Shown: one piece after another, positions 9,648-27,206 of the stretch | Layout: every line of letters begins with the position of its first letter | Position numbering within the stretch: the first letter of the stretch is position 1 | Assembly: GCF_012027725.1 (NCBI RefSeq) | Contig: NZ_SJOU01000012.1 | Coordinates: forward strand, 1 to 64,000 | Length of the DNA stretch: 64,000 nt | DNA from: Olsenella sp. SW781 | GTDB lineage: Bacteria > Actinomycetota > Coriobacteriia > Coriobacteriales > Atopobiaceae | Reading direction: 5' to 3' | Program-made: the position numbers and the translations under genes | The notes under the pieces: generated by a model | Seen by the model: only the letters and a program-made list of their open reading frames with translations | Databases searched by the model: none | What the model was told of the DNA's origin: nothing

Positions 9648-9654
9648 GTCGGCC

Positions 9655-9824
9655 TCAGGCGCGCAAAGGGGACGGGCCATGCCACTGGCGTCAGGCGTGC
9701 AAAGGGGACGGGCCATGCCACTGGCGTCAGGCGTGCAAAGGGGACGGGCCATGCCACTGGCGTCAGGTTTATTTGGCACGCAAGCCACGCGTGCCAAATA
9801 AACCTGACGCCAGTGGCATGGCCC
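9655..9824. repeat. Hairpin element with three tandem 36-base units on one side
   Basis: A 36-base unit beginning TCAGGCGTGCAAAGGGGACG is repeated three times head to tail (9655, 9691, 9727; the first has one base change). It then runs into TCAGGTTTATTTGGCAC. The last part forms perfect 35-base arms (9746-9780, 9790-9824) with a 9-base loop. The extra units have no partner on the right side, unlike the symmetric element at 1920-2056. It lies between convergent genes. Confidence 0.92.
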
Positions 9825-24875: not shown

Positions 24876-27062
24876 ATGAACCCGCGCGTAAGAATCGCCT
24901 GCCTCGCCGCCGACGCGGCGCGCTGGGGCACCACCCGCCTGCTGCATCGAGGCGGCGGAAACGCTCCGGGCGCCGTGGCGCTGCGCCTTGCGCCGAACCT
25001 CATCGGCGAGCTTGGCGGCGCGCTCGAGCGCTCGGTGGTGGTCACGGGCACCAACGGCAAGACCACCACGACCGGCCTTGCCGCCGACGCGCTCGCGGCG
25101 GGGGCCGGAGGCGTGGTGTGCAACCGCGCGGGCAACAACATGGAGTCGGGCATCGCCTCCGCGCTCGTGGAGTCCCGCGGGTCGGGCGCGCGCGTGGGCT
25201 GCTTCGAGTGCGACGAGCTCTACACCGTGCGCGTGCTGCCGGCGCTTCGGCCGCGGGCGCTCGTCCTTCTCAACCTGTTCCGCGACCAGCTGGACCGCTA
25301 CGGCGAGATCGACCACACGCAGGACGTCATTGCCGAGGCGCTGCGCCGCTCGCCGCAGACCGCCATCGCCTACAACGCGGACGACCCGTTCTGCGCCTCC
25401 ATCGCAGCGCGCGTGGACAACCCGGGCGTCCCCTTCGGCATCGACGAGCCCACCGGCCAGGAGGCCGACCGCATCTCCGACAGCCGCTTCTGCGCGAAGT
25501 GCAACGCGCCCCTGGACTACGCGTACGTCCACTACGGCCAGCTGGGCAAGTATCGCTGCCCCGCATGCGGCTGGGAGCGTCCCGAGCTTGCCTTTGCCGC
25601 CGTCAACGTGACGCTGACCTGCGGCGGCTACGAGTTCGACGTCGAGGACCGCCGGGGCGAGAAGAACGTGCGGCACCACGTGCGCACCCGCTACAACGGC
25701 CTCTACATGGTCTACAACGTGATGGCGGCCCTGGTGGCGTGCCTGCTTGGCGGCGGAGACGCGGACGACTTCCAGGGCGCGCTCAACGCCTACGAGCCCG
25801 CGAGCGGCCGCGGCAAGACCTACCGGCTCGGCAGCGGCCACTCCGTCGTGAGCAACCTCGCGAAGAACCCCACGGGCTTCAACCGCATGGTGCAGCAGGT
25901 ACGCGCCGAGGACGGGCGCTACGTGGCACTCTTCCTCAACGACAACGACGCGGACGGCCACGACGTCTCCTGGATCTGGGACATCGACCTCGAGCGCCTG
26001 CGTGACCTCACCGACCTGCGGTGCGTCTGCGTGGGGGGCACCCGCCGCGAGGACATGGCGGTGCGCGTGAAGTACGCCGAGCTCGGCTGCCCCATCGAGC
26101 TCACCGATGGCGTCGAGGACGCCCTGCGCTTTGTTGACGCGGGCGAGAAGCTCCACGTGATCGCCAACTACACCGCCTTCCCGCCCGTCGTCGCCGACCT
26201 CGACCGCCTCTGTAAATTGGGGACGGGTTTTTCCTCGCAGAAAAAAGGGGACAGACCCGCTGCCGACACCGTGAGCGCAACGTCCGTCGGCGTCTCGTGG
26301 ATAGCGCATGAGGAGCCGGCAACCCCTGCCCTTGACCGCCCGCTGCGCATCGTGCACCTCTACCCCGACGCCCTCAACCTCTACGGCGACGGCGGAAACA
26401 TCGCCTCGCTCTCCAAGCGCTGCGCGTGGCGCGGCATTCCCTGCCGGGTTGACCAGGTCCTCATGGGCCAGGAGCTTAACCTCACCGACGCCGACATCGT
26501 GCTTCTGGGCGGCGGCGCAGACCGCGACCAGCTTGCCGTCTGCCGCGAGCTGCAGGCGCAGCGCGAGAAGGTGGAGGCCTACGTCGACGAGGGCGGCGTT
26601 CTTCTTGCCATCTGCGGCGGCTACCAGCTGCTCGGCCACTACTACATGATGGGCGAGGAGCGCGTGGAGGGCCTGCACGTGCTGGACATCGAGACGACCG
26701 CAGGGAGCACGCGCCTCATTGGCAACGTGGCGATTGAGTCGCCCGTATGCGACGCTCCGATCGTGGGCTTTGAGAACCACGCGGGCCGCACGGTGCTCAG
26801 CGCAGGCGAGAAGCCCTTGGGGCGCGCGATGGTCCACGGGACCGGCAACAACGGCGAGGACGGCGGCGAGGGCGTGCTTCATAACGGCGTTGTGGGCACC
26901 TATCTGCACGGTCCGATCCTGCCCAAGAACCCCGGCGTCACGGACTGGCTGATCGAGCGCGCCCTGTGTCGACGTGGCGAGAGGATCGAGCTCTCGCCGC
27001 TGGACGACTCCCTTGAGCACCTGGCGCACGACGTCGCCATGAGGATCGCGACGGGACGCTAG
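24876..27062 (+). CDS. murT-gatD: Fused MurT-GatD lipid II amidotransferase
   Basis: A 728-residue single chain. Residues 1-445 are MurT: P-loop GTNGKTTTTGLAADAL near 53, a four-cysteine zinc ribbon (CAKCNAPLDY and CPACGWERPEL near 206-232), and the C-terminal DUF1727 domain. Residues about 489-728 are GatD: LRIVHLYPDALNLYGDGGN, nucleophile Cys in LAICGGYQLLG and the His motif GTYLHGPILP. In other Gram-positives these are two proteins that together amidate the glutamate of lipid II. The join (about 446-488) includes sequence resembling the intergenic hairpin family. The start is ATG 24876 after CGGAGGGAGC. A GTG at 26271 could still start a separate GatD. An exact 12-mer copy lies at 25656. 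Confidence 0.88.
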   Translation: MNPRVRIACLAADAARWGTTRLLHRGGGNAPGAVALRLAPNLIGELGGALERSVVVTGTNGKTTTTGLAADALAAGAGGVVCNRAGNNMESGIASALVESRGSGARVGCFECDELYTVRVLPALRPRALVLLNLFRDQLDRYGEIDHTQDVIAEALRRSPQTAIAYNADDPFCASIAARVDNPGVPFGIDEPTGQEADRISDSRFCAKCNAPLDYAYVHYGQLGKYRCPACGWERPELAFAAVNVTLTCGGYEFDVEDRRGEKNVRHHVRTRYNGLYMVYNVMAALVACLLGGGDADDFQGALNAYEPASGRGKTYRLGSGHSVVSNLAKNPTGFNRMVQQVRAEDGRYVALFLNDNDADGHDVSWIWDIDLERLRDLTDLRCVCVGGTRREDMAVRVKYAELGCPIELTDGVEDALRFVDAGEKLHVIANYTAFPPVVADLDRLCKLGTGFSSQKKGDRPAADTVSATSVGVSWIAHEEPATPALDRPLRIVHLYPDALNLYGDGGNIASLSKRCAWRGIPCRVDQVLMGQELNLTDADIVLLGGGADRDQLAVCRELQAQREKVEAYVDEGGVLLAICGGYQLLGHYYMMGEERVEGLHVLDIETTAGSTRLIGNVAIESPVCDAPIVGFENHAGRTVLSAGEKPLGRAMVHGTGNNGEDGGEGVLHNGVVGTYLHGPILPKNPGVTDWLIERALCRRGERIELSPLDDSLEHLAHDVAMRIATGR
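26214..26258. repeat. GGGGACRGG repeat relic inside murT-gatD
   Basis: AAATTGGGGACGGGTTTTTC and GAAAAAAGGGGACAGACCC flank CTCGCA. The TTTTTC/GAAAAA and CGGGT/ACCCG pairs can form a hairpin. Two GGGGACRG cores are present in the same orientation. The stretch is read in frame as part of the linker between the MurT and GatD domains and is much more AT-rich than the gene around it. Confidence 0.75.
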
Positions 27063-27087: not shown

Positions 27088-27206
27088 GCCCTCGGCGTCT
27101 GGCCGCGCCACCGCGCCACTGGCGTCAGGCTTATTTGGCACGCGTGGATCGCGTGCCAAATAAGCCTGACGCCAGTGGCGCAGCGGCGCGGCCAGACGCC
27201 GAGGGC
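27088..27206. repeat. Long nested inverted repeat, GCGTCAGGCTTATTTGGCAC type
   Basis: Outer arms of 22 bases (27088-27109, 27185-27206) and inner arms of 32 bases (27113-27144, 27150-27181) are separated by a 3-base mismatch, with loop TGGAT. The inner arm carries CCACTGGCGTCAGG then CTTATTTGGCAC, shared with 1920 and 9746 except T to C. This copy lacks the GGGGACGGG module. It sits between the convergent murT-gatD and PFOR genes. Confidence 0.9.

Follow-up and report, generated by a model that had tools for sequence, protein, structure and literature searches.

Fused murT-gatD genes in Thermophilibacter and related Coriobacteriia, with RAYT-type REP sequences in the interdomain linker of many Thermophilibacter species

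MurT and GatD are presented in excerpts of studies on Staphylococcus aureus and Streptococcus pneumoniae (PMC3266927, PMC6085368) as a complex encoded by a two-gene operon. The gene described here retains both subunits, the catalytic residues and the Cys4 ribbon of these enzymes. However, the two partners are encoded as a single polypeptide, and the linker between them contains a repeat of the REP type. REPs and RAYTs are described as extragenic in the available portion of PMC3116915. The repeat examined here resembles REP/REPIN-RAYT systems in being short and present in many copies, most of which form inverted pairs with singlets as remnants, and one inverted pair flanks a Y1/RAYT-like gene. 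However, one copy lies inside a coding sequence, and the core is GGGGAC, whereas the tags given in excerpts of PMC3733652 are GTAG or CGTC. The closest precedent is found in the Rickettsia palindromic elements, which, according to part of a review (PMC10969869), insert in frame into protein genes and are translated. In-frame translation inside a gene also occurs here, but the Rickettsia elements, as far as that text goes, are about 150 bp long and occur in many genes, whereas here REPs of 31–50 nt occupy one linker in many species.

Literature searches returned no paper in which MurT, GatD and Coriobacteria are all named, nothing on Olsenella with REP or on REPIN and RAYT with coding regions, and only microbiota papers for Thermophilibacter. 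The portions of the MurT/GatD literature consulted mention no MurT-GatD fusion. The new observations are a fused MurT-GatD across part of the Coriobacteriia and, within one genus, the presence of RAYT-type REPs at one and the same linker in many species.

The window is a 64,000-nucleotide stretch of a 2.43 Mb draft genome (38 contigs, 99.7% complete) that belongs to the genus Thermophilibacter; the nearest named relatives are Thermophilibacter provencensis and other Atopobiaceae records named Thermophilibacter or Olsenella. The features of the locus are as follows.

24876..27062, + strand: fused murT-gatD gene (728 aa, P0001), predicted lipid II isoglutaminyl synthase, recognized from the open frame, Pfam/NCBIfam domains, and PDB MurT and GatD chains
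24876..26210, + strand: MurT part, residues 1–445; D363 aligns with S. aureus D349
26211..26330, + strand: interdomain linker, residues 446–485 by alignment; residues 453–480 predicted disordered from pLDDT
26331..27059, + strand: GatD part, residues 486–728; C580 and H678 align with S. aureus C94 and H189
26209..26260, + strand: single REP arm (singlet), in-frame part of the linker, recognized by blastn, pattern search and profile score

The first-pass annotation had read one uninterrupted 728-codon frame over both partners, and this is borne out: the frame is open from the ATG at 24876 to the stop at 27060–27062 and covers MurT and GatD domains. Three Pfam domains score above their cut-offs (Mur_ligase_M, residues 56–209; MurT_C, 328–434; GATase_3, 491–685). 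The NCBIfam models for MurT and GatD are narrow equivalogs, and their cut-offs are missed (232.8 bits against 800 for MurT and 196.4 against 450 for GatD). The triad C580/H678/D363 corresponds to C94/H189/D349 of S. aureus, residues whose catalytic roles are given in excerpts of PMC6113224, and is invariant in all 24 aligned rows, as is the nucleotide motif. The Cys4 ribbon of the MurT part is formed by Cys 206, 209, 228 and 231. In the AlphaFold model (mean pLDDT 84.7) MurT-like and GatD-like domains flank a disordered linker, with residues 453–480 below 50, and Foldseek ranks the MurT and GatD chains from solved complexes highest. From this homology and the intact catalytic residues we infer that the gene probably encodes one bifunctional lipid II isoglutaminyl synthase, and the fused enzyme would be expected to amidate lipid II.

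Two strings in the linker, AAATTGGGGACGGGTTTTTC at 26214–26233 and GAAAAAAGGGGACAGACCC at 26240–26258, had been taken for a repeat relic, and the genome supports that identification. A blastn search of the same genome with the segment 26195–26270 returns 60 hits, of which 45, not counting the segment itself, have E below 0.02. When up to 2 mismatches are allowed, TGGGGACGGGTTTTTC occurs at 48 sites, compared with 1 for the reversed control. Based on these hits and pattern sites, the linker repeat is far beyond chance. Profiles were built from copies outside linkers (148 arm copies; 46 short-palindrome sequences, both strands of each counted), and thresholds were set from 840 shuffled linkers, whose maxima were 4.5 bits for the arm and 7.5 bits for the palindrome. 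The window linker scores 43.9 bits with the arm profile. The first-pass annotation had also matched the linker to the intergenic repeats of the window. GGGGACRG is indeed enriched there (24 occurrences, 9.7 expected, and 0 of 100 shuffles reach 24). However, this core is all that the window's other repeats share with the linker repeat, and the real family is spread genome-wide.

Many copies of the family are inverted pairs with an arm close to CTGTAAATTGGGGACGGGTTTTTTCTCTCAGAGAAAATGGGACAGG, whereas the linker has one arm. The genome contains six Y1_Tnp genes, all of which exceed the PF01797 cut-off. One Y1/RAYT-like gene (G000:C12:181118-181963) lies between inverted arms at 180992–181033 (+) and 182035–182083 (−). 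Three of the six Y1_Tnp genes were scored against REP_Tyr_transpos (NF047646) and reached 73.3, 63.7 and 61.7 bits with a cut-off of 80; therefore we call the gene RAYT-like.

Other repeats were also observed. Long near-perfect inverted repeats with CCACTGGCGTCAGG arms at 27088–27206, 1913–2057 and 9651–9824 represent another repeat family of the genome, and the first of these lies directly behind the murT-gatD gene. Additionally, a frame beside an IS200-like transposase (L001, G000:C3:61958-65314) translates to repeated DHPRIRGEH/SSPHTRGA/GIIPAYAGST, which resembles a type I-E CRISPR array.

Our preferred reading, to which we assign a probability of roughly 85%, is that the locus encodes a bifunctional enzyme whose fusion is ancestral, and that a REP came later into the linker as a passenger. 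The N-terminal MurT ligase would activate the D-Glu carboxylate of lipid II, and a flexible tether would join it to the C-terminal GatD glutaminase, the putative ammonia supplier. After the fusion, a REP of the resident RAYT-associated family may have entered the fast-evolving, disordered linker. In the species of the window one arm appears to be left, translated as about KLGTGFSSQKKGDRP. It is probably tolerated because it is open in frame, has a frame-keeping length and sits in a linker without fixed structure. Across the genus this spot seems to have repeatedly gained, exchanged or lost such elements. The repeat would thus alter the length and sequence of the linker and would not be the cause of the fusion.

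A REP is clear, above all shuffles, in 12 of the 29 genus linkers. The arm profile identifies it in rows L007, L012, L020, L022, L067, L028, L026 and L018, and the palindrome profile in L008, L010, L011 and L025. L024 (5.6 bits) and L030 (2.9 bits) are doubtful, and 15 of the 29 rows have no REP even by the broad count. On the genus tree the REP state requires a minimum of 7 changes, or 8 if both doubtful linkers are scored as empty, compared with a mean of 11 and a minimum of 7 in 200 shuffles of the states. Since these are fewer changes than the shuffles typically need, REP presence is partly inherited, with turnover. The arm-type inserts lie on the same strand in all eight rows and at a constant position, which fits one ancestral insertion better, unless target choice fixes both. 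In a separate observation, the L008 linker is more like the linkers of L024 and L025 than like that of L007, its sister. This suggests recombination between species at the linker, and the gene tree may include horizontal exchange.

The numbers of short palindromes and arms differ widely among the genus genomes, and in clear cases the linker type follows the resident family. Arm linkers are found in the arm-dominated genomes G000, G013, G030, G002 and G020, and palindrome linkers in the palindrome-dominated G022, G018 and G004 and also in G017, where both are common. However, the near-perfect palindrome AATTGGGGACNGTCCCCAATT, absent from several genus members, is present in 75, 81 and 122 copies in G009, G010 and G006, which have no linker REP, and G014 has 44 palindromes yet an arm-like linker. 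The G020 insert has its best match, at 97.7%, to copies in its own genome, and its variant GTGCTTTTTC was found in G020 and in none of six other genomes searched; even so, a copy in G000 is 94% like the insert over 52 nt. The G018 stem variant GCACGTT recurs three times elsewhere in the G018 genome, and G017 has one altered copy; none was found in G008, G022 or G004. These variants, mainly of the host's own genome, point to repeated acquisition or conversion. The linkers of G002 and G030 are each other's best match, while that of G013 matches a copy of its own slightly better than it matches the G002 linker; the likeness of these three inserts points to inheritance. Taken together, the matches to resident variants and between linkers indicate both inheritance and local acquisition or conversion. 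The hints that the repeat is mobile come from such comparisons between genomes.

To decide which REPs are coding, a home-made codon score was used in place of a gene finder. By this score the window's genome has one clear coding site among 49 entries (19 + 30, overlapping, with the entry L111 invalid), and that site is the linker itself; L137, where the second half of the arm is missing, is doubtful with a score of 0.12. The same score found no coding copy among 29 palindromes in 20 regions sampled from G022 and G009, and the linker palindromes were coding in 5 of 5 cases. Outside the linker, the REPs of this family are essentially intergenic, and the linker site is unusual for the family. We tentatively propose, at slightly less than even odds, that the linker of this cell-wall enzyme is recolonized by whichever RAYT-type REP is active, through insertion or conversion, while nearly all other genes are avoided.

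A single entry in the ancestor of the 25-row genus crown, with later variety produced by decay and by conversion from resident copies, is a competing reading that we consider less likely than not. It would account for the shared position, frame and strand, for the similar linkers of G002, G030 and G013, for the REP state changing less often than in the shuffles, and for L024, which looks like a decaying L025. However, an SWxAP-like segment is found both in REP-free crown rows and in the basal rows L031–33, and looks ancestral rather than decayed. The G020 and G018 inserts, with variants typical of their own genomes, also fit a single entry poorly.

It is quite improbable that the REP is kept for a function, as an mRNA hairpin lying between the two domains that would slow translation or set linker length. 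The linker of L010 contains two perfect palindromes and folds with a z of −7.3 relative to shuffles, that of L008 has a z of −2.8, and the persistence of a REP in the linker is worthy of attention given that REPs avoid genes elsewhere. However, folding is ordinary in the window copy (z −0.8) and in L012 (+0.4), L018 (−0.2) and L011 (−0.8), the REP-free L031 itself folds at −2.8, and the 15 rows empty by the broad count would lack any such element. As linker RNA folding is unusual in some species only, a conserved mRNA hairpin is unsupported and a conserved hairpin role is unlikely.

The evidence places the fusion before the repeat. All 31 genus genomes have a match, 28 of them at full length (G003, G015 and the MurT half of G030, where the junction is not spanned, are left out), and all 28 full-length copies have a single open murT-gatD frame. 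In G030 the gene is divided between contigs, but the contig with the junction (row L067) is also open, which gives 29 genus junction rows. The concern that a frameshift or sequencing error had produced the long frame is thus set aside. The first-pass annotation had proposed looking for a close relative with separate murT and gatD and without the insert. None was found within the genus; separate genes occur only in other genera (L150–L155 and the Slackia rows L080–L082), among them L150–L153 from other genera of the same family, of which 4 of 6 such genomes were taken in. The earliest branches of the genus on the tree, L034 and then L031–33, are fused without a REP, and another 13 rows of the genus, including 2 doubtful ones, are fused without a clear repeat. 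The fused gene is also found in the Collinsella-like rows L062, L063, L065, L066, L078, L079 and L085 and in the Eggerthellaceae-like rows L069–L077, L156 and L157. The tree of MurT+GatD places the fused Collinsella-like genes as the sister group of the genus (SH-aLRT 99), and the profile score gives no REP signal in any of 13 fused Collinsella- or Eggerthellaceae-like linkers. Because basal genus lineages and other clades show the fusion but no REP, the fusion already existed in the ancestor of the genus and the REP came later into an existing disordered linker. A recent, species-specific fusion is likewise rejected.

These data bear directly on the original proposal that a REP inserted at the murT/gatD boundary, whether in this species or already in the ancestor of the genus, destroyed the stop codon and so made the fusion. 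The part of that claim in which the repeat is read in frame within the linker stands. Elsewhere in the family, the MurT of other genera terminates a few residues past the start of the linker (GERRG*, GERHG*, GEAV*), and the REP begins at exactly that place. However, with REP-free fused genes at the base of the genus, a fused Collinsella-like nearest outgroup and no REP signal in the 13 outgroup linkers, creation of the fusion by removal of the stop is largely refuted and now very improbable, since an ancestral REP would have had to decay beyond recognition in every basal lineage. Separate production of GatD from an internal start is also very improbable, as the candidate in-frame GTG at 26271 falls where the gene varies most, and the sequence there is different in relatives, L009 for example.

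Two further arrangements were observed among these genomes. In L158 and L159, from the order-level relatives G041 and G049, a lone in-frame TAG closes murT, and the start of gatD follows one codon downstream without a change of frame. A single point mutation could therefore join the two genes, which is a simple way to fusion without any repeat. The single-contig genome of G007 has two equal-score copies in opposite orientation (G007:C1:2099294-2101465 and 2155892-2158063), which reflect either a duplication or an artefact of the assembly.

A one-chain MurT-GatD in Coriobacteriia is useful for structural work on a drug target. Additionally, the genus provides a natural species series in which one can follow how a REP in a coding sequence is tolerated, decays and is replaced. 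If the proposed recolonization is true, a mobile palindrome repeatedly rewrites the tether of one protein.
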